This document shows, piece after piece, positions 42,431 through 64,000 of a stretch of DNA of 64,000 nucleotides. A program made the position numbers and the translations under genes. Every line of letters starts with the position of its first letter. The stretch's first letter is position 1. Origin of the DNA: Bradyrhizobium sp. ISRA430 (lineage in GTDB: Bacteria; Pseudomonadota; Alphaproteobacteria; Rhizobiales; Xanthobacteraceae); the NCBI RefSeq assembly GCF_029909975.1, contig NZ_CP094516.1, positions 5,704,001-5,768,000 on the forward strand. The letters run 5' to 3'. The notes under the pieces are model-generated. The model saw only the letters and a list, made by a program, of their open reading frames with translations. It had not been told where the DNA came from and made no database searches.

Positions 42431-42509
42431 ACACCGTGTGCCGAGGCTCAAGAAATTTGGCAGGTATTTCAAGCCTGCGTTGAAAGATCTGCGTCGCCGC
42501 CCAAACTCC

Positions 42510-42570
42510 GTCATTGCGAGCGCAGCGAAGCACTCCACCTCCTGGATTGCTTCGCTGCGCTCGCAATGAC
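42510..42570. repeat. Large palindromic repeat (23-base arms)
   Basis: Arms at 42510-42532 and 42548-42570 are perfect complements (starting GTCATTGCGAGCGCAGCGA) around a 15-base loop. It lies 13 bases beyond the stop of the minus-strand gene and may end its transcript. A half-size relative lies at 39421-39450. Confidence 0.8.
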
Positions 42571-42582
42571 GACGCGGGCGAT

Positions 42583-42942
42583 CTACGTCATGCTGCCCGG
42601 CATGAAGCAGCGGATCAGCGCGCGGCCGTTCACGTAGTAGGGCCAGACGATGGTTCGGCCGACACGGTTCGGCTCGGTGATCACGGTGTCGTCGGGCACC
42701 TGGATCCACTCACCTTGCAGCCGGACCCGGTAATGTCCGTCTTGCGTGTCCCAGTCGACGTCGTCGAGCGCGGTCCCGTCAGCGTCGGCGCAGCACGGGC
42801 CGCCGCCTTTGCTGTGCAGGCTCTCGAACCAGCCCTTGAGGGGAGAATTCGCGTAACGGCCGTCGTCGCGGGCCTCCGCGGTCGCGCCGATCAAGGCTGC
42901 AACCGCAATGAGAGGGATCATCCGAAAGGTCGTGATCGCCAT
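42583..42942 (-). CDS. Secreted hypothetical protein, 119 residues
   Basis: ATG 42942 is preceded by GAGGTG and opens a signal peptide (FRMIPLIAVAALIGATAEA). The mature part has GPCCADADGT, DWDTQDGHYRVRLQGEWIQV, VGRTIVWPYYVNGRALIRC and three cysteines. It looks like a small periplasmic beta-protein of unknown function. It is the last gene before the proposed island edge. Confidence 0.7.
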   Translation of the reverse strand: MAITTFRMIPLIAVAALIGATAEARDDGRYANSPLKGWFESLHSKGGGPCCADADGTALDDVDWDTQDGHYRVRLQGEWIQVPDDTVITEPNRVGRTIVWPYYVNGRALIRCFMPGSMT

Positions 42943-43142
42943 GTCACCTCGCTCGCTATGCGCACACGCACAACTCCGCAGACGAAAGCCGTCTGCGATG
43001 CGCGTGATGCGCTCTGGCTGACGCCCGCCGGCCGATGTTCCGGCCGTCTCAGCGGAGCGATAACCGCAAGGCCCGGCGTTTGATCCTATTTTCGCAAAGC
43101 GATAAGCGGAGCACCGCCCTGACTGCGGCGGAGGAACCGGTC

Positions 43143-43217
43143 TCAGGCAGCCGCCGCCTGCTCCGAAAGCAATTGCTTCAGCTTTGAGGCCGGCACTGCC
43201 GGGCTGAACAGCCAGCA
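43143..43217 (-). pseudogene. Displaced 3' end of a GGDEF-EAL gene (island edge)
   Basis: Read on the minus strand this encodes CWLFSPAVPASKLKQLLS then EQAAAA and a stop. The intact gene ending at 52103 finishes GWLFSPAVPAAKLKQLLS then AQAAAA and a stop, so 21 of 24 residues agree while many codon third positions differ. 43198-43216 is identical to 52158-52176 (19 bases). Similarity ends abruptly at 43217. It is either the displaced end left by site-specific integration or a fossil of another EAL paralogue. Confidence 0.8.
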
Positions 43218-43345
43218 CCGTCGCTCGCGCAATGTTGGCAAATGACTCCGTTGCGGACTTCGAGCCGAAGTACCACGTGCCCCGCCTGGCGTGGGGATCG
43301 CTGGCATGCCAATGTAGTGTCGTGCCGAACCTGCAGGAGTTCAAC

Positions 43346-44140
43346 ATGCGAACGAATATAGTGGGAGCACTTTGCGCCGTCGCGGTAATCGCGAGCGCAA
43401 ACGCTGCTGTAAAGGAACAGCCGGTCACGTATACGGACGGCGAGACCACGATGAAAGGCTTCGTCGTCTACGATGACGCGATCCAAGCGAAACGGCCTGG
43501 GATCGTGATGGTGCATGAATGGTGGGGCATCACCGATCACATTCATAACGAGGCGCGAAAATTCGCGCAGCAGGGTTACGCTGCATTCATTGCGGATATG
43601 TACGGCGACGGCAAGACCGCCGACAACCCAAAGGACGCCGGCGCGCTCTCGGGATCAGTGACGAAGAACCCGAAGGTGATGGAGCAGCGCTTCAACGCCG
43701 CGTGGCAGCAACTCGCCAAGCAGCCCTCAGTCAATCCCCAACGGATCGGCGCCGTTGGTTACTGCTTCGGCGGCGCGGTGGTGCTGAACATGGCGCGCGC
43801 CGGCGCTGATCTCGCCGCCATCGCGGGCTTTCACGCATCACTTGGTCTCAACACCCCCGCACCGGCGCCGGGAGCCGTCAAAGCGAAAATCCTTATTCTG
43901 AACGGCGCGGACGATCCGTTCGCGAAGCGTGAGCAGTATGATGCGCTCAAGAAAGATTTCGACGCAGCGAAGGCCGATTATCGGATCATCGAGTATCCCG
44001 GTGCTGTGCACGCGTTCACGAACCCCGAAGCCACCGAACTCGGCAAGAAGTTCAACTTGCCGCTCAGATACGACGCCAAAGCTGATCAGGAAGCGAAGGC
44101 CGAAGCAGCCAAGTTCTTTGCCGCAAGCCTTCAAAAATAA
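43346..44140 (+). CDS. Dienelactone hydrolase family protein, secreted
   Basis: 264 residues with a short signal peptide (NIVGALCAVAVIASANA). The alpha/beta-hydrolase triad of dienelactone hydrolases is visible: Cys140 in VGYCFGGAVVLN, Asp190 in NGADDPFAK and His222 in GAVHAFTNP. GIVMVHEWWGITDHIHNEA is the oxyanion region. It hydrolyses lactones or esters, probably in the periplasm. CAGGAG lies seven bases before ATG 43346. It is the first gene inside the proposed island. Confidence 0.9.
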   Translation: MRTNIVGALCAVAVIASANAAVKEQPVTYTDGETTMKGFVVYDDAIQAKRPGIVMVHEWWGITDHIHNEARKFAQQGYAAFIADMYGDGKTADNPKDAGALSGSVTKNPKVMEQRFNAAWQQLAKQPSVNPQRIGAVGYCFGGAVVLNMARAGADLAAIAGFHASLGLNTPAPAPGAVKAKILILNGADDPFAKREQYDALKKDFDAAKADYRIIEYPGAVHAFTNPEATELGKKFNLPLRYDAKADQEAKAEAAKFFAASLQK

Positions 44141-44418
44141 GCAAGAAAGGTCCCACATCGTGACTCTTTCTCTCTGTGGCTGGTTTAGCCGCGGGATAAA
44201 CAGGGCTGCAATGTCGCGCTAGCACTTTGTGGCGGACGAGATGGCGGAACGTGAGTCCGCTCTTGACCCAAAAGCTGACCCTGCATTGAGGTCGAGCCAA
44301 TGTCGGCTTGTGACCCCAACTGAGACATTGCTGCTGATCGCGGCCGTCGCCACTCGGTCCTGGCTCTGAGTTGTCAAATATGGTTTGGTAGCCAACCGCA
44401 CATTGCATGGAGCTGGCT

Positions 44419-45099
44419 ATGACAGTTCATCGTGCTTTGTTGATGCTCTTCATCGCAGTTGCGTGTTGGTTCTTGGTGGCGATGCTTGGGGGACAGCTCG
44501 CCGCTCAGCACAGTCCGGAGGGCGTCCGCTGCAAACCTATTGCCGAGCGTACGGGCGAGCTTGGCTGCTGGATCATCATAGACAAACCGCTCGGACAGCT
44601 GGGAAAGTCCGAGATGTTTTGGCACCTCTATTCTTATCCGACGCGTTCAGACGCAGAACGCGCGAAAGGAGCAGGTGGAGAAGTGATCGAGTCCTTCGGC
44701 AAAGTCTGGTTGCTCAGCATCGAAGAAAAGGGCTGGCGAGCTGCCGGCGGTGATCGCATTGCCGAAATCGGCCCACTTCCGATAAATGCGAGGGAGGCGT
44801 ACTCGGCGCAGTACATGGAGGCTATCTTTACGCCCGGTATGACCGCTCCTGCCCATATCCATTCGGGACCGGAGGCCTGGTACACGTTGAGCGGCGAAAC
44901 GTGTTTGGAGACTCCGCTTGGGAAGCAGATCGGGCGCGCAGGGGGCGACTATGTGATCGTACCAGGCGGACCGCCAATGCACCTTACCGCGACGGGCACC
45001 GAGACGCGTCGCGCATTGGTATTGATTCTCCATCAAACGTCCATGCCGCCCACCACCCTTGTGCACGATTGGACGCCGACGGGACTTTGCAAGCAGTAA
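44419..45099 (+). CDS. Cupin-domain protein, membrane-anchored or secreted
   Basis: 226 residues. An N-terminal hydrophobic helix (ALLMLFIAVACWFLVAMLGG) is followed by a soluble part whose C-terminal half is a cupin: APAHIHSGPEAWYTLSGETCLETP supplies His and Glu metal ligands and GPPMHLTATG a later His. It may bind a metal and a small ligand. GGAG six bases before ATG 44419 supports this start over ATG 44407. Confidence 0.72.
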   Translation: MTVHRALLMLFIAVACWFLVAMLGGQLAAQHSPEGVRCKPIAERTGELGCWIIIDKPLGQLGKSEMFWHLYSYPTRSDAERAKGAGGEVIESFGKVWLLSIEEKGWRAAGGDRIAEIGPLPINAREAYSAQYMEAIFTPGMTAPAHIHSGPEAWYTLSGETCLETPLGKQIGRAGGDYVIVPGGPPMHLTATGTETRRALVLILHQTSMPPTTLVHDWTPTGLCKQ

Positions 45100-45437
45100 A
45101 GCCCTTTCGGAGTGTCCTGCGTGCGTGCAAGAGGGCTTATCAGTTGCGGTGATCGTCATTCGCGAAGAAAAGTGACTTCCGGTGTTGGCGGCCCTTAGCC
45201 GAACTGGGGCTGAGGCATCTGCAAAGTCGGCTATGAGAGGCAGAGCGGACGTGGGGCCGGAGACGCTTCGACGGCCGCTGACCCGGAGCAGGCCTTTTCA
45301 CGCAGCCCGCCGACCGCCGGCTTTTGACCCCAGCCGGCCTTAGACTATTTTTTCGGAGTCGCGAACCGTTTCTCATTTTCCAAGCCTCTAAGTCTCTAGG
45401 GTCGTCAGAAACGACGCTACAAAGGCGCGAGGTTGCT
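45100..45437. other. Intergenic region in the island
   Basis: 338 bases with no supported gene. It presumably holds the promoter for the DUF2892/sigma operon. Confidence 0.35.
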
Positions 45438-45647
45438 ATGCTGTACAAGAAGAACGTGGCTGGATGGGAAAGTTGGGTCCGGCTCTTGGCTGGGGCAATT
45501 ATGATTGCTTGTGGGCTACTAGGTCTTAAAGGTATGCCCGTTGGATACCTGATCGCCGGTGTCGGGGTCCTGACCGCGCTTACAGGCGTTTTCGGATACT
45601 GCCCGGCGTGCGCAGTAGCAGGTCGAAAGCTGCGCGCCGAACCATGA
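45438..45647 (+). CDS. DUF2892 (YgaP-like) membrane protein with CPAC motif
   Basis: 69 residues. Pattern of the DUF2892/YgaP membrane domain: GWESWVRLLAGAIMIACGLL, a second helix (YLIAGVGVLTALTGVFGY), then CPAC and a basic tail. The CPxC pair lies at the membrane edge and could be redox active (inference). GAGG precedes ATG 45438. The stop overlaps the ATG of the sigma factor gene (ATGA), so the two are translationally coupled. Confidence 0.8.
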   Translation: MLYKKNVAGWESWVRLLAGAIMIACGLLGLKGMPVGYLIAGVGVLTALTGVFGYCPACAVAGRKLRAEP

Positions 45648-46168
45648 GCACACCTTTTTCATCGCCGAGCATGATGGAAGCGGCAATAGGCGGGGACGCT
45701 GACGCCATCCTGACGCTGCTCAAAATGTCGCAGCCCGACATACGCCGGTACGCGCGAAGAACCTGCCGCACGACAAGCGATGTGGAAGACGCGGTTCAGG
45801 AAACGTTATGGATCGTGTACAGTCGCATTGGTCGTCTCCAACGTGCCGGAGCCTTTTCCCTCTGGCTCTTTCGGATAGTTCATCGAACCTGCTTAAGATT
45901 GGCAAAGCAGCATTTAGGCCTTCCTGATGACGTCTCTTCCTTGGAAAATGACCTGCAGCTTTCGAAGAGGCCAGAATCAGAACTTCGCATCGATATAGCT
46001 GCCGCGATCCAGTCGCTGCCGAGCCACTACCGGCAGGTGCTCATTTTTCGGGATGTGGACGAAATGACGATTAGCGAAATAGCGCAATCGCTGGAGCTAA
46101 CCCGAGAAACTGTGAAGGCTCGACTGCATCGCGGTCGAGCGCTCGTGCGTGAATATATGATGCGCTGA
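45644..46168 (+). CDS. ECF RNA polymerase sigma factor
   Basis: 174 residues. Region 2 (DIRRYARRTCRTTSDVEDAVQETLWIVYSRI, residues about 30-75) binds core polymerase and the -10 element. Region 4 (LPSHYRQVLIFRDVDEMTISEIAQSLELTRETVKARLHRGR) has the helix-turn-helix for the -35 element. No conventional anti-sigma gene is adjacent; instead DUF2892 membrane proteins lie on both sides, ATGA-coupled upstream and nine bases downstream. They may take the place of an anti-sigma factor. Confidence 0.9.
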   Translation: MSTPFSSPSMMEAAIGGDADAILTLLKMSQPDIRRYARRTCRTTSDVEDAVQETLWIVYSRIGRLQRAGAFSLWLFRIVHRTCLRLAKQHLGLPDDVSSLENDLQLSKRPESELRIDIAAAIQSLPSHYRQVLIFRDVDEMTISEIAQSLELTRETVKARLHRGRALVREYMMR

Positions 46169-46177
46169 GGAGTAAGA

Positions 46178-46396
46178 ATGTTCGCCAGCAGTTCACTCAC
46201 CGAGCACCTTATCCGAGGTCTTGTTGGTATTGGAGCTCTCTCGACGGCAGTGTGGGTCGGGACAGACGCAGGTTGGCCTGCAGTACTAGGTTCCGTCACT
46301 CTGGGGCTAGTATCATTGATATCTTTTCGAGGATGCCCGGTCTGCTGGTCTATAGGCTTGTTTTCGATGGCACGCCGGTCGTTGACCTCGCTGTAA
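46178..46396 (+). CDS. DUF2892-like membrane protein with CPVC motif
   Basis: 72 residues, starting nine bases after the sigma factor stop with a GGAG site. Two helices (LIRGLVGIGALSTAVWVG and VLGSVTLGLVSLISF) are followed by GCPVCWSIGLFSMARR. Layout matches the first DUF2892 protein, including a CPxC pair at the end of helix 2. Together with it and the sigma factor it makes a three-gene unit. Confidence 0.72.
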   Translation: MFASSSLTEHLIRGLVGIGALSTAVWVGTDAGWPAVLGSVTLGLVSLISFRGCPVCWSIGLFSMARRSLTSL

Positions 46397-46780
46397 TCGG
46401 GTTCACTTCTGCTTTTGGCCCGACGCGGCTGTTCAGCACTGCAAGGACTAACGTCCGCTGTCCGGGGGCACAGCGGACCTATCGCGGACGGTGCCCCACT
46501 GCTGGGTGTGACCCAGAGGAGACATTTGCGGTCCGAGTGCCAGCTCTGCGTGCGGGCCCTTGCGACTCACCCGCTGGCCGTCGCCATGTTCCACTAGGCC
46601 TGCATCGGGCCTTGATCCGGCGCATTTTGCTGCGTCGTGGCGCGAATGCTGTTCGGCGGTGCCCACCAGGGCCACTGGGTGATGTCCGGCCTCCGCAACG
46701 GTCTGCCCTGCTTCAAGACCCGCCGCTAGCGCCCGCTACCCTAGGCGCCTAAACTGTCCTCTATCCATCCGGAGCTAAGC
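46397..46780. other. Intergenic region in the island
   Basis: 384 bases between the sigma operon and the first adenylate cyclase gene. It holds the hairpin at 46453-46478; otherwise frames are short and without ribosome sites. Confidence 0.35.
46453..46478. terminator. Hairpin downstream of the DUF2892/sigma operon
   Basis: GTCCGCTGT (46453-46461) and ACAGCGGAC (46470-46478) are perfect complements around an eight-base loop, 57 bases past the operon's last stop. No T-run follows, so the terminator role is a candidate only. Confidence 0.45.
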
Positions 46781-48562
46781 ATGGCCACGGAGCGCCTAGA
46801 GCGACGGCTCACAGCCATCCTCGCCGCCGATGTCGCGGGCTACTCCAGGCTGACCAGCATGGACGAGGAGGGCACGCACCTTCAGCTGAAGGAACATCTG
46901 CGTGTCCTCGTCGATCCCAAGATCAGCGAATACCGTGGACACGTTGTCAAGAACACCGGCGACGGAATGTTGGCTGAGTTCAGCAGCGTCGTCGACGCCG
47001 TCCGTTGCGCCATCGACGTTCAGCGCGGCATGGCGCAACGCAATGCCAGCCTACCTCAGGAAAGGAGAATCGAGTTCCGCATTGGTATCAATGTTGGGGA
47101 TGTCATCATCGATGGCGGTGACATTTTCGGTGATGGAGTGAACGTAGCGGTCCGTCTGGAAGGGATAGCGGAGCCGGGCGGCATCTGCGTTTCGGCCCGT
47201 GTTCAGGAGTACGTGCGGGGCCAATTCGAGATTCCCTTCGAGGACGTAGGCGAGCAGCGGCTCAAGAACATTGCTAGGCCAGTGCGTGCGTATGCGGTCA
47301 GGATTGGTACGCGGGCGTCGCTTGCCCCAAAGAGCGGCATGCCCGCCGTACCGAGCGCGCCACGTCTTTCTATGGTCGTATTGCCGTTTGCCAATCTCAG
47401 CAGCGATCCAGGGCAAGATTATTTCGTAGATGGCATCACCGAGGACCTTACCACAGAGCTATCGCGGCTAGCCGGCTCCTTCGTGATCGCACACAGCACC
47501 GCCTTTGCCTTCAAGGGCAAGTCGGTGGACGTAAAGCGCGTCGCGCGCGAACTCGGTGTTCGCTACGTGGTTGAAGGCAACGTCCGAAGGGCGGGTCAGC
47601 GCGTACGGGTTGGTATCCAGCTGATCAACGCCGAAACCGGTGCTCATCTGTGGGCTGATCGGTTCGATCGGGAAATCTCGGAGCTGTTCGAGCTACAGGA
47701 TGCAATCACCATCGAGCTCGCGCACGCGCTCGACGTGCAGCTTATCGAAGCCGAGAGCCGTCGCAGCGAGCGTTCGACAGACCCAGATGCAGGCGACCTG
47801 GTAATGCGCGCTCGCGCGCGCCTCTACCATGGCGTGTCTCGCGCGAGCCTTGTCGCGGCTATTCAGTATTACAGAGAGGCGTTGCAACTTGCCCCCGACG
47901 ACGTTTCGGCTTTGGCAGAGTTGGCGGATGTTCTCGCAAGCAACATCGCGAGCTTGTGGAGTGAAGCGCCCCACGAAGAGTTTCGTGAGGCTAAGGCCTT
48001 AGCTGTGCGGGCTCTGGAACTTGATCCGTCTGACGCGTACTGCCACCATGTCGTGGGCGTCGTGCTTTCTCTAAGTGGGCGTTTCCAGGAAGCCATAGAC
48101 GAATTCGAAGCAGCGATCCGGCTCAATCCGAATTTGCACTTTGCGCACTCTGGCCTTGGTTTTGCGAAGACTCTCTCGGGTCTCGGTGAGGAGGCGCTGC
48201 AGCATTTCGCTCACTTCATCCGTCTCAGTCCGCGCGACCCGTTTTTGTTCAGAGGATACTACGGCATTGGCTTGGTTCAGTTTCTACTCGGTGACGATGT
48301 CCGAGCGATTGAAATGCTGCACAAGGCAACTGGCTTGAGCCCTCACTACTCGCTGGCTCACCTCTGTCTCGCGGCCGCTCACGGCATCCAGGGGCGCGTC
48401 GATGAGGCGAGCGCCGCACTTGCCAACTATCTGCGGACCAGCCCGTCCGCCAGGACGATCTCCGCAATACAATTGCTTCGACCATCGAAGAATCCGTCTT
48501 ACCTTGCCCAGTGCGAAAGACTGTACGAAGGGCTGCGTAAGGCGGGGATGCCGGAGAGGTGA
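46781..48562 (+). CDS. Class III adenylate cyclase with TolB-like and TPR domains (copy 1)
   Basis: 593 residues. The catalytic domain (about 8-175) has both metal aspartates (AILAADVAGYSRL and KNTGDGMLAEF) and the GDGVNVAVRLEGIA turn. Residues about 200-320 are a TolB-like N-terminal fold (VVLPFANLSSDPGQDYFVDG). The rest holds TPR-type repeats (ALELDPSDAYCHHVVGVVLS, AIRLNPNLHFAHSGLGF). It should make cAMP in the cytoplasm under control of its protein-binding repeats. ATG 46781 is a good start. A related gene lies at 50087-51844 on the other strand. Confidence 0.9.
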   Translation: MATERLERRLTAILAADVAGYSRLTSMDEEGTHLQLKEHLRVLVDPKISEYRGHVVKNTGDGMLAEFSSVVDAVRCAIDVQRGMAQRNASLPQERRIEFRIGINVGDVIIDGGDIFGDGVNVAVRLEGIAEPGGICVSARVQEYVRGQFEIPFEDVGEQRLKNIARPVRAYAVRIGTRASLAPKSGMPAVPSAPRLSMVVLPFANLSSDPGQDYFVDGITEDLTTELSRLAGSFVIAHSTAFAFKGKSVDVKRVARELGVRYVVEGNVRRAGQRVRVGIQLINAETGAHLWADRFDREISELFELQDAITIELAHALDVQLIEAESRRSERSTDPDAGDLVMRARARLYHGVSRASLVAAIQYYREALQLAPDDVSALAELADVLASNIASLWSEAPHEEFREAKALAVRALELDPSDAYCHHVVGVVLSLSGRFQEAIDEFEAAIRLNPNLHFAHSGLGFAKTLSGLGEEALQHFAHFIRLSPRDPFLFRGYYGIGLVQFLLGDDVRAIEMLHKATGLSPHYSLAHLCLAAAHGIQGRVDEASAALANYLRTSPSARTISAIQLLRPSKNPSYLAQCERLYEGLRKAGMPER

Positions 48563-48710
48563 GCGCGTCCCTTGGGGAACAGCTGTTGAATCGTGCGGAA
48601 GCGTGCAAAATAATCACACAGGGTTTGCACGACGCAGGAGACGCCCGCTTATGGCCCGAAGCGGCCGGTGGGAGAGGGGCAGAGCATGTCCGCTCTGCCC
48701 GCCTAGTTCG

Positions 48711-48959
48711 GACGTCGACTTGCTCTGCTATTGCAAGCGCGTCGTCCACTTCAATGCCGAGGTAGCGCACGGTGCTCTCGATCTTGGTGTGCCCCAACAG
48801 AAGCTGAACGGCCCGCAGGTTGCCGGTACGGCGGTAGATCAAAGTAGCCTTGGTTCGTCGCAGCGAGTGCGTACCGAACATATGCGGGTCTAGTCCTATT
48901 CCCGCGAGCCAACCAGATAGTAGCCGGGCGTATTGCCGCGTGGTCAGCCCTCGATCCAG
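48711..48959 (-). pseudogene. Tyrosine recombinase (integrase) C-terminal remnant
   Basis: On the minus strand the frame reads LTTRQYARLLSGWLAGIGLD, FGTHSLRRTKATLIYRRTGN and VQLLLGHTKIESTVRYLGIE. The HxxR, GH and Tyr residues of the catalytic core are present, but the N-terminal two thirds, with the first catalytic Arg, are absent. Frame similarity ends near 48959; the downstream methyltransferase stop at 49017 is in the same frame. It is a truncated phage/island integrase. Confidence 0.8.
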
Positions 48960-49016
48960 GTCCCCGGACTCCGCGGCGGCGGAAATGACCCATTGCCGAC
49001 TTGGCTTGTGCGCCCA

Positions 49017-49865
49017 TCAAGCCGGTCGCTGGCCCGAGCCAATTTTGAATGCGATAGGTAGGTTCAGCCCGTCGGCTGATCTGTAGACGCTGGCGCAACG
49101 TTCGAACGCGGTTCGGATCAGGTCTTGAGTCGCCTGATCTTGCTGCCTAATGACAGCGCCGGTCAGAACGAGACTGCCTAACCCGCCTCGCCAAAGGGTC
49201 TCCGTATCGGGAACGAAGTAGGTTGCAGTGTGTTCTGTGACCTTCACCTCCGTGAGGCCAGCTCCGTTTAGCAACCGGAGGAATTCGCCCGAGTTGGAAT
49301 AGCGAAACACATCGTGGCCCTGTGGCACGTCCAGTGGGGCCGATACGCCAATCTCGGCAATGGCGTCACGGAAGATGCCTTGAATACGTTGGCGCGATGG
49401 TTCATCCCACCACGAAAATGCAATACGTCCGCCGGGCGATAAAGTTCGAACGCACTCTGCGACAGCAAGTTCTGGCCGGGGAAAATGTCCAAGACCGAAA
49501 GCGCAGACGACTGCGTCGAACGTATGATCAGGAAATGGGAGATGTTCTACGTCAGCCTCACGATATTCGATCGTGGGGTACAGCCGCTGCGCCAGTTCTA
49601 TCATGCGCGGCGACAAATCAACGCCGACCGAGCGCGCGCCGCGATTTGCGGCTTCGGCTGTAAGGACACCCGGCCCGCTCGCGACATCCAGCAGACGCAT
49701 GCCGGAGTGCAACCGCACGTCGTCGAAAAGAGGGGCGGTAGCTAGAGCGGTCACCGCCGCAAAAAATTCGTGATAGCTCTTTGCCAAAGCATCATGACCT
49801 TGGCGTTCGAAGGCCCGCAGTCGTTCCGCCTCGCTGCTCGACAGTTCTGCTGGAGACACAATCAT
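49017..49865 (-). CDS. Class I SAM-dependent methyltransferase
   Basis: 282 residues. Motif I is LLDVASGPGVLTAEAA; motif II has VGVDLSPRMIELA; then EADVEHLPFPDHTFDAVVCA. This is the UbiE/MenG-like Methyltransf_11 class of small-molecule methyltransferases. The C-terminal half is poorly conserved, so the substrate cannot be inferred. ATG 49865 follows a GGGGGGA site. The gene directly abuts the integrase remnant on the same strand. Confidence 0.85.
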   Translation of the reverse strand: MIVSPAELSSSEAERLRAFERQGHDALAKSYHEFFAAVTALATAPLFDDVRLHSGMRLLDVASGPGVLTAEAANRGARSVGVDLSPRMIELAQRLYPTIEYREADVEHLPFPDHTFDAVVCAFGLGHFPRPELAVAECVRTLSPGGRIAFSWWDEPSRQRIQGIFRDAIAEIGVSAPLDVPQGHDVFRYSNSGEFLRLLNGAGLTEVKVTEHTATYFVPDTETLWRGGLGSLVLTGAVIRQQDQATQDLIRTAFERCASVYRSADGLNLPIAFKIGSGQRPA

Positions 49866-50086
49866 TCCCCCCTAGACGCAAGACCGCTCAACAATAACAG
49901 CTCTCGGGGAACGGCAACATCCTAGATGTCCGGATGTGGCCCTTCTCCGAAGCATCGGCTCGCCCCGTCAAGGTCCAGATACTGGAGTACAGCGGACTCG
50001 ATTTGCTCACGTTGAGTTCTTCGCATTCTGACCCATTTCGGACCTTGGCTGCTTTCGGGCTGCGACTCACGCGTCAGCTCGGGAGA

Positions 50087-51844
50087 TCATTCTTCCGGCA
50101 GTCCTACCGGTCGGAGAATGTCGCAATAACGCGTTCGGTCGGCCGCGTAAATTAATGGGGACGCTCGCTCCACCCATGCTACTGAGTATTCGGGCTGGAG
50201 GTCCCGCGCCTTCGCCACGGCTTCTCGCGCCTCCTCCAGATGCCCCAGCATCGCGGCCGAGAGCGCCAGCCCGCGCCAAGAGCCCGTGACTTCGGGGTTC
50301 TGGCGCACCGCGCGGCGTCCCCAATCGAGGCCTGCCGCGTAGTCCCCGGCCATGAAGTGTGCGAAAGCTCGGATGCTGGCGAAGGCCGCAAAGTTCGGAT
50401 CGTGTGGGCTGAGGCGCATCGCCCTTTCAAGGGAGCCGACAGCCTCAGCTCCCTTTGCACCGTAAGCCAGCACCAGCCCAAGAAAGGCGTGGCCCAACGC
50501 GAAGTTCGGATTCAAGTCGAGTGCCGCGCGCAGCTCCTCGACGGCTTCCTCGTGCTCGCGCCGGAGCATATGAGAGAACCCAAATGCGAGGCGTGCCCAA
50601 GGGTCGTTGCGGTCGATCGCCACTGCAGCGCGGGCCCGCTCAGTAGCCGGTGCCAGTACAGCAGCGAGCCCGCCCCCAAAAGCCTGCGCGTTCCAGAGGC
50701 TGAGCCATGCGTGAAGACCAAGCGCGCGTGCATAGGATGGGTCGAGCCGCAGCGCCGCCGATAAAAAATCGAGCGCCGTTTCATTGTCGCTCCGAGTCCA
50801 TCGCCACATGAACGGCAGCGCGCGAATGACGCAGTCCCAAGCATCGAAGTGGCTTGGCGGCGTCTGTTGTAGGCGCGCGCTCTCGGCAGCGTAGAGCTGC
50901 GGCTCAACCGCAGTGACGATGCTTGCGGTGACCTCGTCCTGGAGAGCAAAGAGGTCTGGCAGTGCTCGTTCGTAGCGCTCTACCCAAATTTCGCGTCCGG
51001 TCCCCGCGTCGGCGAGCTGGACCCCGATCCGCACGCGTTCGCCGGCCCTTCGGACGCTGCCCTCAAGGACGTAGCGCACGCCAAGCTCGCGACCAATCTG
51101 CGTCACGCCGACTGTCCTGCCCTTGTAGGTGAACGCCGAACCCCGAGCAATGACGAAGAAGCCGCGCAGCCGCGCCAGTGCGGTTGTGATCTCCTCGGCA
51201 ATTCCATCTGCAAAATACTCTTGGCTCGGATCCCCGCTCAGGTTTTGGAATGGCAGAACAGCAATTGATGGCTTGTCGGGGAGCGCCAGCGTAGGCAGTG
51301 GCTTGGCTTCCACGCCTTCCAACCGAACGCGGTACACACGCACCGGCCAAGCGATATTCTTTAGTCGATGCTCGCCTGTATCCTCGAATGCAAGGTCCAA
51401 TTTGCTCCGCGCATCCTCCTGCACTCGAGCCGACACACAGATGCCGCCCGGGAGCGCGAGCGTCTCCAGCCGTGCGGCGATGTTCACGCCATCGCCATAG
51501 ATGTCATTTTCTTCAATAATAACGTCGCCCACGTTGATGCCGACGCGAAACTCAATCCGCTTATCTTGAGGCACTTCGGAATTGCGCGCGGCCATACCGC
51601 GCTGAACTTCGACAGCACAACGCAACGCATCCACGACACTGCTGAACTGCGCCAGCATGCCATCGCCGGTGTTTTTAACAACCCGTCCGCGGTGTTCGAC
51701 GATTTTGGGCTCGACGAGCGTGCGAAGATGGTCCTTCAACTGGACGTGTGTGGCCTCCTCGTCGACGCCCATGAGCCGGCTGTAGCCGGCGACATCAGCT
51801 GCGAGAATGGCGGAGAGCCGTCGCTCCAAGCGCTCGCCAGCCAA
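50087..51844 (-). CDS. Class III adenylate cyclase with TolB-like and TPR domains (copy 2)
   Basis: 585 residues with the same architecture as the gene at 46781: catalytic aspartates in ILAADVAGYSRLMG and KNTGDGMLAQF, GDGVNIAARLETLA, TolB-like SIAVLPFQNLSGDPSQEYF, then TPR repeats (LDLNPNFALGHAFLGLVL, AMRLSPHDPNFAAFASIRA). Start is TTG 51844, with GGAGG six bases upstream; no ATG is better placed. The two genes are on opposite strands. They are paralogues from separate lineages or an old duplication. Confidence 0.9.
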   Translation of the reverse strand: MAGERLERRLSAILAADVAGYSRLMGVDEEATHVQLKDHLRTLVEPKIVEHRGRVVKNTGDGMLAQFSSVVDALRCAVEVQRGMAARNSEVPQDKRIEFRVGINVGDVIIEENDIYGDGVNIAARLETLALPGGICVSARVQEDARSKLDLAFEDTGEHRLKNIAWPVRVYRVRLEGVEAKPLPTLALPDKPSIAVLPFQNLSGDPSQEYFADGIAEEITTALARLRGFFVIARGSAFTYKGRTVGVTQIGRELGVRYVLEGSVRRAGERVRIGVQLADAGTGREIWVERYERALPDLFALQDEVTASIVTAVEPQLYAAESARLQQTPPSHFDAWDCVIRALPFMWRWTRSDNETALDFLSAALRLDPSYARALGLHAWLSLWNAQAFGGGLAAVLAPATERARAAVAIDRNDPWARLAFGFSHMLRREHEEAVEELRAALDLNPNFALGHAFLGLVLAYGAKGAEAVGSLERAMRLSPHDPNFAAFASIRAFAHFMAGDYAAGLDWGRRAVRQNPEVTGSWRGLALSAAMLGHLEEAREAVAKARDLQPEYSVAWVERASPLIYAADRTRYCDILRPVGLPEE

Positions 51845-52102
51845 AGCACACCTCCGGGTACGCGTAGGCAGTTTACTCCTCCGGTTGCGGTCGCCAAGGG
51901 GGACTGACGGATTTGGACGCCCGCCGCATGCCGGTACCGCGAGGGCGGCCCTTTCCGCGACGGATTAATGACCATCCGCGGCAGCACCGCTATATGTCCG
52001 CTTCTGGGCCCAGACCAGACGAGCTGAAGGGACAGGCCGAAGTCTGCTTCCTAACACAGGATGCGGACACAGCTTATCGAGGCTTCGGGACGAGTACGCG
52101 CG

Positions 52103-54766
52103 CTAAGCCGCCGCAGCCTGCGCCGACAGTAACTGCTTCAATTTCGCTGCAGGCACCGCCGGGCTGAACAGCCAGCCCTGCATCTGGCTGCACCCGAGCT
52201 GTCGCAGCACTTCGCGCTGCGCCTCGGTCTCGACGCCTTCGGCCGTCGTCGCCATGTGCCGGGCCGCGGCCATGTGCACCACCGCCTGGACGATCGGGGA
52301 GGAATCCTCAGGCTCGCCGATGTCGCTGATGAAGCTGCGGTCGATCTTGATCTTGTCGAAGGGGAAGCGGTGCAGGTAGCTCAGTGACGAATAGCCGGTG
52401 CCGAAATCGTCGAGGGCAATGCGCACGCCGAGCTCGCGGAGCTGCTGCAGGATCGTCAGCGCCTCCTCGTCGTCGCGGATGAGAACGGTTTCGGTGATCT
52501 CGAGCTCGAGCCGTCCCGGCGCGAGGCCCGACTCCCCGATCGCGGCTGCGACCTTCAGTGCGAGCGTCTTGGATCGGAACTGCACCGGCGAGACGTTGAC
52601 CGCGACGTGGATCTGGCCGGGCCAGGCGGCGGCTTCGGTGCAGGCCTGCTTCAGCACCCATTCGCCGATCTCGCCGATCAAGCCGGTGTCCTCGGCGACT
52701 GGAATGAACTCCGCCGGAGAGACCATGCCGCGCTCCGGATGGCGCCAGCGCAGCAGCGCTTCGCAGCCCGTCACCACATCGGCGGCGAGATCGACCAGCG
52801 GCTGGTAGTGCACCTCGAACTCGCCGCGCGCGAGCGCCTGCCTCAAGTCGAGCTCGAGCTGCCGCCGCTGCCTCGCCTTGGCATCGTATTCCGGCACGAA
52901 GAAGCGGAACGTGCGGCGGCCTTCGGTTTTCGCCGCATACATCGCGAGGTCGGCGCGCTTGAGCAGGTCGTCGAGATTGTCGCCGTGGTCGGGCGCGATC
53001 GCGATCCCGATGCTGGCGTCGGTCGGAATCTCCTGGCCTTTGCAGTCCACGGGCGTGCGCAGCGACTTCAGGATCTGCTCCGCCAGCGCGGTCAGCTCGG
53101 CCTGATCGTTGGTGCCGGCCTTGATAATGGCGAATTCGTCGCCCCCCAGCCGTGCGACGAGGTCGTTGCCGCTGACGCAGGCGCGCAGGCGGTTCGCGAC
53201 CTGACGCAACAGCTCGTCGCCGACCTCGTGGCCGAGCGAGTCGTTGACGCCCTTGAATTCGTCGACGTCGATGTAGAGGATCGCGAACGGCTTGCCCGCG
53301 GCAAGCTCCGCCACGCGGCGCTCCAGATGCCCGCGCATCAGCACGCGGTTCGGCAGGTCGGTCAGCGCGTCGTAATGCGCCATATGCGCGATGCGCTCGT
53401 CGGCGCGGATGCGCTCGGTGACGTCGTCATGGGTCGCGAGCCAGCCGCCGGCGGCGCCGGGCTGATTCTTGATCTCGATCAGGCGGCCGTCGGCGGTTTC
53501 CACGATGGCGCTCTGGGTGCGCTCGACGTGATTCAAAATGCCGTCGCAATAGGAATCGACGTCGCCGTGGAACGAGCCGGTGTCGTAGCGATGCTGGATC
53601 ACGTCGCGGAAATAAGCGCCCGGCTTCACGACGTCGGCCGACAGCCGGTACATCTCGATGTAACGCCGGTTGCAGACGATGAGCCGCTCGTCCTGATCGA
53701 ACATCAGCAGGCCCTGCGTCATGGTGTTCATCGCGGTATCGAGCCGCTGCTTCTCCACCGATAGCCTGTTCGTCATCTGGCGGAAGATCAGGTACAGCGT
53801 GAGCACGAGAAGCCCGACGGACAGCACCGCGACGGTGACGAAGAATTTGGTCTGCGTGCGCCAGGTGGCGAGCGTGGCGTCCAGCGACTTGGTCGCGACC
53901 ACGACCAGCGGCTCGCCGGTCAATAGACGCGAAGCGACGATGCGGTCCTTGCCGTCGATCGGGCTTGCGAGCTGCGTCGTGACGAAGGTGCGCTCGAATA
54001 CGGCCATCTGCTCGGGCGGACCCTTGCGGTAGTTCTGCCCGATCATTGCATCGACATGCGGAATGCGCGCGAAGAGCTGGCCGTTCTGGTGGTGCATCGC
54101 GATCGAGGATTCCTCGCCGAGCCCGGTCGACGCGAAGAACGATTCGAGCTGCTCCGGCGTGATCGCACGCGAGACCAGGCCGAGGAATTCGTCGTGCGGG
54201 CCGGACACGCGCCGCGCGAATACGATCGCCGGCCCGTTGCCGAACCGTCCCGGCACCACCTCGACCTCCTCCTGCGAAGCGGGGTCATTCTTGAGTCGAT
54301 TGAAATAGCCGCGATCGGCGATCGAGATCTCGGCGACCGGCCAGCGCTTCGACGAGTTGATCAGCACGCCGCTCGAATCGAACACGTTGGCGCCGGCGAC
54401 GTCGGTCCAGCCGCTGGCCTTGCTGCGCAGCACCTCGTGTACGGCGAGCGTGCCCATCTCGCTGCGGAACACGTCCGCGGAATCGATGCCATGGCTTTCG
54501 AGTTCGGCGATGATGCTCTTCTGGAGCACCGCGAAATCCTCGAACTCGCGGTCGAAATGCCGGGCGAGCAGCCGCACCGCACTCTCGAGGTTGTCGCGGC
54601 CGCTTTCGATCGCGTTCTGGCGGAAGCGGTCGACGGTGAGCGCGGTCCCGATCGCGGTCGCCGCCATCAGCACGAAGCCACCGACGATCAGCCATGTCAG
54701 CGGCGCCCCGCGCCAACGGCGGAACACCGCGCGCATGCGCGCGGTCCATCGGATTGATGTGCCCAT
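52103..54766 (-). CDS. Membrane GGDEF-EAL protein with Cache and PAS domains
   Basis: 887 residues. Helix 1 (about 23-45), a periplasmic Cache-type sensor (about 50-310), helix 2 (about 318-338), PAS (about 350-465), GGDEF (about 470-635, intact LGGDEFAII) and EAL (about 645-880, with CEALLRWRHP, NVSPVQF, ELEITETV, DDFGTGYSSLSYL, KIKIDRSF and EGVET). Both domains look catalytic, so it can make and break c-di-GMP. GGGGAGGG precedes ATG 54766. Its 3' end is the proposed integration site of the 43.2-52.2 kb island. Confidence 0.92.
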   Translation of the reverse strand: MGTSIRWTARMRAVFRRWRGAPLTWLIVGGFVLMAATAIGTALTVDRFRQNAIESGRDNLESAVRLLARHFDREFEDFAVLQKSIIAELESHGIDSADVFRSEMGTLAVHEVLRSKASGWTDVAGANVFDSSGVLINSSKRWPVAEISIADRGYFNRLKNDPASQEEVEVVPGRFGNGPAIVFARRVSGPHDEFLGLVSRAITPEQLESFFASTGLGEESSIAMHHQNGQLFARIPHVDAMIGQNYRKGPPEQMAVFERTFVTTQLASPIDGKDRIVASRLLTGEPLVVVATKSLDATLATWRTQTKFFVTVAVLSVGLLVLTLYLIFRQMTNRLSVEKQRLDTAMNTMTQGLLMFDQDERLIVCNRRYIEMYRLSADVVKPGAYFRDVIQHRYDTGSFHGDVDSYCDGILNHVERTQSAIVETADGRLIEIKNQPGAAGGWLATHDDVTERIRADERIAHMAHYDALTDLPNRVLMRGHLERRVAELAAGKPFAILYIDVDEFKGVNDSLGHEVGDELLRQVANRLRACVSGNDLVARLGGDEFAIIKAGTNDQAELTALAEQILKSLRTPVDCKGQEIPTDASIGIAIAPDHGDNLDDLLKRADLAMYAAKTEGRRTFRFFVPEYDAKARQRRQLELDLRQALARGEFEVHYQPLVDLAADVVTGCEALLRWRHPERGMVSPAEFIPVAEDTGLIGEIGEWVLKQACTEAAAWPGQIHVAVNVSPVQFRSKTLALKVAAAIGESGLAPGRLELEITETVLIRDDEEALTILQQLRELGVRIALDDFGTGYSSLSYLHRFPFDKIKIDRSFISDIGEPEDSSPIVQAVVHMAAARHMATTAEGVETEAQREVLRQLGCSQMQGWLFSPAVPAAKLKQLLSAQAAAA

Positions 54767-63854: not shown

Positions 63855-64000
63855 CTACTCCGCCGGATGCGCGACCTTCTTCGACGCGTGCGCTGCTTCC
63901 GCCGGCGCGGCGCCGGGGGGCGAAGCCGCGTGTTGATCCGCGGTCTCGGCATCCTCGCTGTGCACGATCAGCCGCTTGCCGAAGCGCCAGAACAGGACGC
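63855..64000 (-). CDS. 3' end of an unidentified gene (continues past window)
   Basis: The last about 48 codons on the minus strand read VLFWRFGKRLIVHSEDAETA followed by an Ala/Pro-rich tail ending KKVAHPAE and a TAG stop. The hydrophobic-basic junction suits the cytoplasmic tail of a membrane protein. The family cannot be told from this piece. Confidence 0.5.
   Translation of the reverse strand, partial: VLFWRFGKRLIVHSEDAETADQHAASPPGAAPAEAAHASKKVAHPAE

Follow-up and report, generated by a model that had tools for sequence, protein, structure and literature searches.

The prophage e14 and the element SGI1 encode integrases. According to the sections of the respective reports consulted here, e14 in Escherichia coli icd leaves a displaced icd end of 163 bp (PMC6379469), and both e14 at icd and SGI1 at trmE are site-specific elements found at the 3' end of a protein gene, where the end is regenerated and the old end displaced (PMC6379469, PMC8409611); the tDNA islands of Islander have their endpoints marked in the same way, by a regenerated target and a displaced fragment (PMC4383910), while in the integrase-poor hotspots described in 2017 the flanking gene is constant, the content varies and integrases are scarce (PMC5635113). 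Behind a GGDEF-EAL gene of Bradyrhizobium sp. ISRA430 we describe an island with features of each. A regenerated gene end and a displaced fragment bracket the element, and across relatives the flanking gene is constant, with varying content and, in nearly all regions scanned, without an integrase. In contrast to e14 and SGI1, this island has no intact integrase, and its sole recombinase fragment cannot be connected with the site. It differs from the tDNA islands in having a protein gene as target and in that endpoints common to independent islands are only partly seen (compared with the sections consulted of PMC4383910), and from the hotspots in the duplication of the gene end at the far border, a feature that does not appear in the sections consulted of the hotspot description (PMC5635113).

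Duplicated gene end and empty site

In the analysed stretch of 64,000 nucleotides (the window), the GGDEF-EAL gene (52103..54766, minus strand) is intact and encodes an 887-aa protein of Cache/PAS/GGDEF/EAL architecture, with PAS_7, GGDEF and EAL domains identified by a Pfam scan. Protein length is kept in the window, and orthologues elsewhere in Bradyrhizobium are 87-96% identical. The 3' end of the gene (in-place copy, 52103..52177, minus strand, stop TAG) borders the island. A displaced copy of 75 nt with a TGA stop is located at 43143..43217 on the same strand and is probably what is left of a duplicate that was once longer. The preliminary description had reported two copies in the same orientation, with 21 of 24 residues identical and many silent changes, and alignment together with a codon count confirms this. 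The copies align over 70 nt without gaps at 81% identity (43147-43216 and 52107-52176, spacing 8960). In a shuffling test, 56 of 70 positions matched, compared with 33-35 at best for eight shuffled queries. Over the full 75 nt, 17 positions differ; 14 codons are changed, three of them non-synonymously.

It had also been predicted that strains free of the island would carry the EAL gene followed directly by a small secreted-protein gene (42583..42942, minus strand, 119 aa, no Pfam family), which in the window is the far neighbour. Of the 108 distinct EAL loci, 13 indeed have this arrangement, with at most 240 nt from the EAL stop to the secreted gene. Empty sites in relatives thus accompany the bracketing fragments, as expected for an island of the e14/icd type. 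The 108 loci represent the distinct EAL sequences among 122 oriented loci, from 130 examined; no EAL gene lay within range for the other eight (L002, L005, L017, L018, L022, L026, L028 and L029). The region between the displaced copy and the secreted gene (42943..43142, minus strand) is homologous to the 173-237 nt that follow EAL at the 13 empty sites and represents the ancestral intergenic region. When the displaced tail and the next 200 bp were compared with individual empty-site junctions, an end-to-end alignment of 280 nt at 80% identity was obtained for L001, and alignments of 277-281 nt at 75-77% for L004, L013, L025 and L030; the L006 junction aligns as two pieces. As the empty-site junction aligns with the displaced tail and its flank, the segment at 43218..52102 (GC 0.598), missing at empty sites, is an insertion that left a duplicated gene 3' end. 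Junction alignments and empty sites therefore support the earlier proposal of an insertion at the EAL 3' end with the displaced gene end as far border. Among the 95 non-empty loci, the secreted gene lies at 393-10355 nt in 28, a lactonase gene is reached without it in 61, and neither is in range in six. Some of the 61 may reflect deletion of the secreted gene as opposed to insertion.

Island content and turnover behind the EAL gene

The GC content of the island is lower than that of the remaining window sequence (0.649) and than the minimum of 0.628 among 75 segments of island length outside it. The weaker third-position GC bias ascribed to the island genes was borne out, with GC3 values of 0.58-0.71 for six of them and 0.82-0.89 for the EAL, secreted-protein, lactonase and efflux-type genes; the LysM neighbour gene, outside the island, has 0.72. 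Cargo genes assigned by Pfam encode a cupin-domain protein (44407..45099, plus strand), an ECF-type sigma factor (45608..46168, plus strand), an adenylate/guanylate cyclase with TPR (46781..48562, plus strand) and a SAM methyltransferase (49017..49865, minus strand), and a second adenylate/guanylate cyclase and TPR gene (50087..51844, minus strand) is inverted with respect to the first. Both island ends are common to the window and the genomes G027 and G132, but the interior is not. The end adjoining the displaced tail, containing a dienelactone-hydrolase gene (43218..44150, plus strand), is found in G132 (94.5%) and, from 43278 on, in G027 (92.6%), and the end adjoining the intact EAL gene (52004..52102) in G027 and, from 52008, in G132. 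The interior would thus have been replaced later while both ends persisted. The G027 island contains an IS110-type transposase.

An integrase near the attachment site, as e14 at icd would lead one to expect, was not found. The tyrosine-recombinase remnant noted earlier between the tail copies is real, but comprises only the C-terminal part of such an enzyme (48759..49013, minus strand, PF00589 with E 9.9e-7 and 9.5e-9 in two scans) and is located mid-island. A role for it in the integration event is not supported: in a profile scan of the 95 non-empty regions, the remaining 94 gave no tyrosine recombinase, nor did the islands of G027 and G132, and kin of the remnant at E<=1e-20, present in 97 of 265 genomes including its own, are dispersed. 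Among the places listed, with two candidates scored per genome, none besides that of the window was found near EAL by reading. The profile was trained on 11 recombinases of the window's genome, among them its two positive controls but not the window remnant. The count of integrase-poor regions refers to tyrosine recombinases.

Gene turnover behind EAL extends across the genus. For 64 of 81 nearest-neighbour pairs with 90-99% body identity, the first 150 nt past the EAL stop show little or no similarity (alignment score <50), and the region is a spot with frequent gene change within the genus. Seven of the 108 loci, the window included, carry pieces of the EAL 3' end downstream on the same strand (8 pieces, E<1e-5), next to differing cargo and all derived from the last 285 of ~2664 nt, with no opposite-strand pieces at the same threshold in the 108 loci. 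Further pieces were found at L014 (1.6e-5) and, farther out, in G027. As a point against the additive reading proposed below, no more than 7 to 9 of the 95 loci with a non-empty site retain a tail piece, and at two of them, L152 and L155, the fragment does not reach the stop. The downstream reach was ~13 kb for most loci and much shorter for L072, L092, L175 and L182-L190 (1.3-2 kb), and far displaced tails can therefore be missed, as that of G027 was. In four of five cases tested (the window, G164, G256 and G280), the flank behind the displaced tail corresponds to the flank directly after EAL elsewhere; that of G132 had no match to such flanks in other genomes.

Several candidates were set aside. 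L018 looks like a decayed EAL gene as opposed to a displaced tail. The tail copies of G016 and G134 lie on separate sequence pieces; that of G134, 2.1 Mb away and between runs of N, is most likely a scaffolding artefact and was rejected and not counted. The 1.4-kb G280 insert holds one 310-aa frame without a Pfam match, which was rejected as a transposase. Insert family E1 (L084, L007, L016, L144, L169 and L152), resembled a mobile element in that its ends recur in two lineages, but showed mainly small exported-protein frames, and no tyrosine recombinase was detected in it.

The origin of the displaced fragment can be read in other ways. It could be all that survives of a second, tandem EAL paralogue, separated from the first gene by later insertion of unrelated genes, and the genome does hold other GGDEF-EAL paralogues (17 matches in all). 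However, the identity of the paralogues listed is 49-62% where they match, compared with up to 89% (66/74 nt) between the fragment and orthologous tails, and at E<1e-5 the downstream regions of the 108 loci contained no EAL piece originating 5' of the last 285 nt, making this origin very improbable. That the displaced tail of the window is less similar to the in-place tail (57/70) than to those of other lineages would also suit an import of the secreted gene with a foreign EAL tail by homologous exchange, the fragment being the end of the import. However, the rows nearest to the window are L002, L014 and L006 in a tree computed from the secreted gene and 150 nt, which has no supported group, and L061, L014 and L006 in the EAL tree, and the in-place tail of G027 has the two residue changes of the displaced tail; we consider such an import improbable.

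Border positions and mode of exchange

The 8.9-kb segment is likely to be an accessory island that an additive event placed directly behind the GGDEF-EAL gene, at an integrase-poor hotspot. This is based on the intact gene, the displaced end with the ancestral junction behind it, the island-free relatives and the EAL tails found elsewhere with different cargo. An additive, single-crossover-like event would keep the gene intact while duplicating its 3' end, with the extra copy at the far border. In G132 (locus L086), whose island has both ends in common with the window, the displaced copy is ~150 nt long and reaches about -146. The duplicate may originally have had this length, later deletions having trimmed it in the window and G027, whose borders look, from their sequences, like deletion derivatives.

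This bears on the 19-base exact match (43198-43216 and 52158-52176) that the preliminary description took for the integration core. The match is present, but a core function is not supported by the longer G132 copy and the apparently shortened borders of the window and G027. When 0-2 mismatches are allowed, 127 of 265 Bradyrhizobium genomes contain a 23-mer that includes the match, and many of these places coincide by eye with those of a search for EAL tails that scored two candidates per genome; as the 23-mer is common at EAL tails of the genus, an exact match between two tails is not special. We therefore rejected it as an att core, it being a conserved coding stretch with longer displaced copies elsewhere. 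The idea of a conserved element terminus immediately behind the EAL stop was likewise rejected, the first 24 nt having only a weak consensus when the 95 non-empty loci are sorted by their stop codon.

As to a core common to independent insertions, which would be expected of islands of the e14/icd type, three left borders fall close together and three elsewhere. The displaced copies of G164, G280 and G132, which hold unrelated inserts, begin within ~5 nt of each other by eye, at about -142 to -146, and the others at -250 (G256), -285 (G103) and -62 (G110). The chance of three borders agreeing is roughly 0.006, estimated by hand after seeing the data and counting six borders. A common left border near -145 is more in keeping with a fixed site than with homology at random positions. 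A tyrosine-integrase island may have used such a site in the EAL 3' end, supplied a new end and displaced the old one, its integrase being lost later. This is a serious possibility, though we hold it with less than even confidence; the site could tentatively be placed at the conserved GGCTGGCTGTTCAGCCCGGC stretch or, better, near -145. The architecture is that of e14 at icd (PMC6379469, as far as consulted), and the window tails differ mainly silently (11/14 changed codons), as two functional alleles would. Against it, the other 94 regions have no tyrosine recombinase, the inserts of G164 (628 bp) and G280 are small, the window remnant is mid-island with none found in the G027 or G132 island, and the three remaining borders misfit unless reshaped later.

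The in-place sequences also argue against a newly supplied end. The G256 tail differs from three sisters without that insert at 1-2 of 54 nt and looks native, as does G280 at -141..-58 (1/84 differing from the nearest sister). The G280 tail differs from the nearest sister at 9/54 nt and from the second at 7/54 (P 0.065), although tails diverge faster anyway and the P values of such tail-versus-body tests thus overstate the difference. Exchange positions consequently appear, on these comparisons, to differ between cases. Our tentative first choice, at somewhat less than an even chance and only slightly ahead of a site-specific integrase since lost, is homologous recombination with its anchor in the EAL 3' end, which has been proposed for integrase-poor hotspots; it accords with the failure to detect a tyrosine recombinase in 94 of 95 regions and with the seemingly differing exchange positions. 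As a counterpoint, a double crossover at flanking genes makes no duplicate by itself. Pooled tail/body divergence was 1.84-fold for same-flank pairs (n=15) and 1.86-fold for different-flank pairs (n=66), and this equality suggests that joint replacement of tail and flank is not a general rule. Across the 106 loci used (L019 and L067 omitted), the ratio revealed no raised recombination in the flanking EAL gene, another difference from the hotspots, and single pairs stand out. L067, with an unreliable stop in the source table, did not enter the sister comparisons either.

Significance for Bradyrhizobium

We consider it unlikely that the EAL 3' end is a dedicated attachment site for integrase-less cassettes that carry its last ~145 nt as their attachment segment, rely on a recombinase in trans and have spread with changing cargo through Bradyrhizobium. 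No earlier report of such a site in a GGDEF-EAL gene was found in a partial literature search covering titles and the starts of abstracts. Should the border near -145 prove to be genuine, the use of GGDEF-EAL coding sequence as an attachment site by integrase-less cassettes would apparently be new. The locus documents genus-wide gene turnover beside a c-di-GMP signalling gene, and footprints of gene ends allow insertions to be oriented where integrases have gone.

A displaced gene end and its low-GC island

In the source genome (8.56 Mb, one contig), an intact GGDEF-EAL gene (EAL; 52103-54766, minus strand; Cache-like, PAS_7, GGDEF and EAL domains) has its final 75 nt duplicated at 43143-43217, in the same orientation and 8960 nt from the in-place copy. 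Identity between the copies is 58/75 at the nucleotide level and 21/24 at the residue level, and 11 of the 14 changed codons are silent. Shuffled queries (n = 8) gave 33-35 matches over 70 positions, compared with 56/70 for the real repeat, confirming the second gene end noted in the preliminary description. The GC and codon usage check proposed there was run on the intervening island (43218-52102): GC content is 0.598 between the two copies versus 0.649 outside, below all 75 equal-length windows tested outside the island, and GC3 is 0.58-0.71 in six island genes.

Two diverged cyclase-plus-TPR genes face each other within the island as the arms of a 503-nt inverted repeat (74%; 46790-47292 and 51333-51835). 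A 29-nt palindromic repeat, REP-like by appearance, occurs at 42509-42571, downstream of a small secreted-protein gene (42583-42942, minus strand). At 63862-63951, the tRNA-Gly(tcc) call spans 90 nt, somewhat more than is usual for this tRNA.

Empty sites and displaced tails in relatives

Island-free relatives, in which EAL is followed by the secreted gene, had been predicted and were found. The named relatives are Bradyrhizobium, bar one MAG. In six of 30 fetched loci carrying the secreted gene (L001, L004, L006, L013, L025 and L030), 193-234 nt separate the end of the EAL orthologue from that gene. Aligned to the L001 junction, the displaced tail of the window together with the following 200 nt matches at 80% over 280 nt, a stretch that contains the block ATAGGATCAAAC, located upstream of the secreted gene; the L004, L013, L025 and L030 junctions align over their length at 75-77%, and that of L006 in two pieces. 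EAL looks decayed in L018 (7700-7920); in L005, L017 and L022, the examined stretch upstream of the secreted gene contained no EAL.

Adding further genomes brought the loci that EAL could orient to 122, among which 108 have distinct EAL sequence. Thirteen of the 108 are empty, with a gap of 173-237 nt. The secreted gene lies 393-10355 nt away in 28 of the 95 non-empty loci, is absent before the lactonase gene in 61, and in six neither gene is in range. Some of the 61 may reflect loss of the secreted gene rather than gain of DNA.

Pieces of a locus's own EAL gene downstream of it (E < 1e-5) number eight, in seven of the 108 loci (the window, L083, L084, L085, L086, L152 and L155), all on the same strand and from the last 285 nt of the gene. 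L014 ranks next (E 1.6e-5); weaker matches (5.7e-5 to 7e-4) are scattered over both strands and the whole gene, as expected by chance. The displaced tail of genome G027 lies 19 kb away, beyond the stretch covered by this count. Sequence beyond the displaced tail has matches directly after EAL elsewhere, in 13 loci for the window, six for L083, three for L084 (L159 and L177 among them, at 97%) and four for L085; for L086, no genome's post-EAL sequence reaches the same score. In four of the five cases, an insert has therefore pushed an old gene-end junction away. The island reading is right in outline, and we consider additive integration behind EAL probable.

In genome G134, an EAL tail plus 1.37 kb (L088, 4457-5825) lies between N runs, 2.1 Mb away from EAL itself; the tail repeat probably misled the scaffolding there. 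An insert adjoining EAL in L084, L007, L016, L144, L169 and L152, with ends recurring in at least two lineages, carries frames for small exported proteins; the L084 version also has a transglutaminase-like gene.

Tail history in the nearest relatives

By EAL, the nearest relatives are G027 (96%), L014 (B. centrolobii) and G132 (locus L086). Both island ends are common to the window, G027 and G132, with differing interiors; the dienelactone-hydrolase end is 94.5% identical with G132 and 92.6% with G027, and the other comprises ~100 nt adjoining the intact EAL. Counting back from the EAL 3' end, the G132 displaced copy extends to about -146. The window has G132's border letters followed directly by the last 75 nt of the tail, and the G027 tail is shorter still; both would be deletion derivatives. 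The G132 displaced tail ends in TAG, as opposed to TGA in the window, and its lactonase gene is not preceded by a detected secreted gene; the three therefore cannot simply be copies of a single state.

Ancestral sequence follows the window's displaced tail. Two residue changes are common to the displaced tails of the window and L014 and the in-place tail of G027, while the window's in-place tail is closest to that of G132 (48/54 nt). The window and G027 differ at 15 of the last 54 nt versus 49/1058 in the body (P 7e-8 for this contrast, though tails generally diverge ~1.85x faster), an excess that probably reflects exchange or conversion of the tail in one of the two.

Integrase or homology

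Within the additive reading, homology-driven change at the EAL 3' end comes close to an even chance. Gene-end duplication requires a circle or an illegitimate step, which counts against homology, as does the pooled tail/body divergence ratio: this is alike for same-flank (1.84, 15 pairs) and different-flank pairs (1.86, 66 pairs), and hence does not point to gene ends being imported as a rule. On the other hand, in 64 of 81 nearest-neighbour pairs the first 150 nt past the EAL stop are barely or not at all similar, and Oliveira et al. report hotspots that lack integrases and whose flanking core genes recombine frequently (PMC5635113).

Insertion by a site-specific integrase, since lost, is a serious possibility, if somewhat short of even. 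The text on e14 in icd provides a precedent, with a 163-bp displaced gene end (PMC6379469), and left borders read by eye fall at approximately -142, -145 and -146 in G164, G280 and G132, despite differing cargo. However, borders lie at -250, -285 and -62 in three other cases. The proposed coding attachment site in EAL with a 19-base core and its own recombinase is not supported. As for the mid-island tyrosine-recombinase fragment, 97 of 265 genomes, the source genome among them, hold kin of it (E <= 1e-20); among the matches listed, those in G027 and G132 sit on other contigs or well away from EAL, and no tyrosine recombinase was detected in 94 of 95 non-empty regions or in G027's island. In-place tails also speak against an integrase in G256, where the tail looks native (1-2/54 differences from three sisters that lack the insert), and less so in G280 (9/54 and 7/54 to two sisters). 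Other routes are improbable.

Seven tyrosine-recombinase matches in the source genome (L094-L100) have equal scores and frames of equal length, and are probably a multi-copy element.

The system belongs to a kind already known, in which an island sits behind the 3' end of a protein-coding gene, here within a hotspot poor in integrases; the most interesting lead is the left border near -145 common to G164, G280 and G132.
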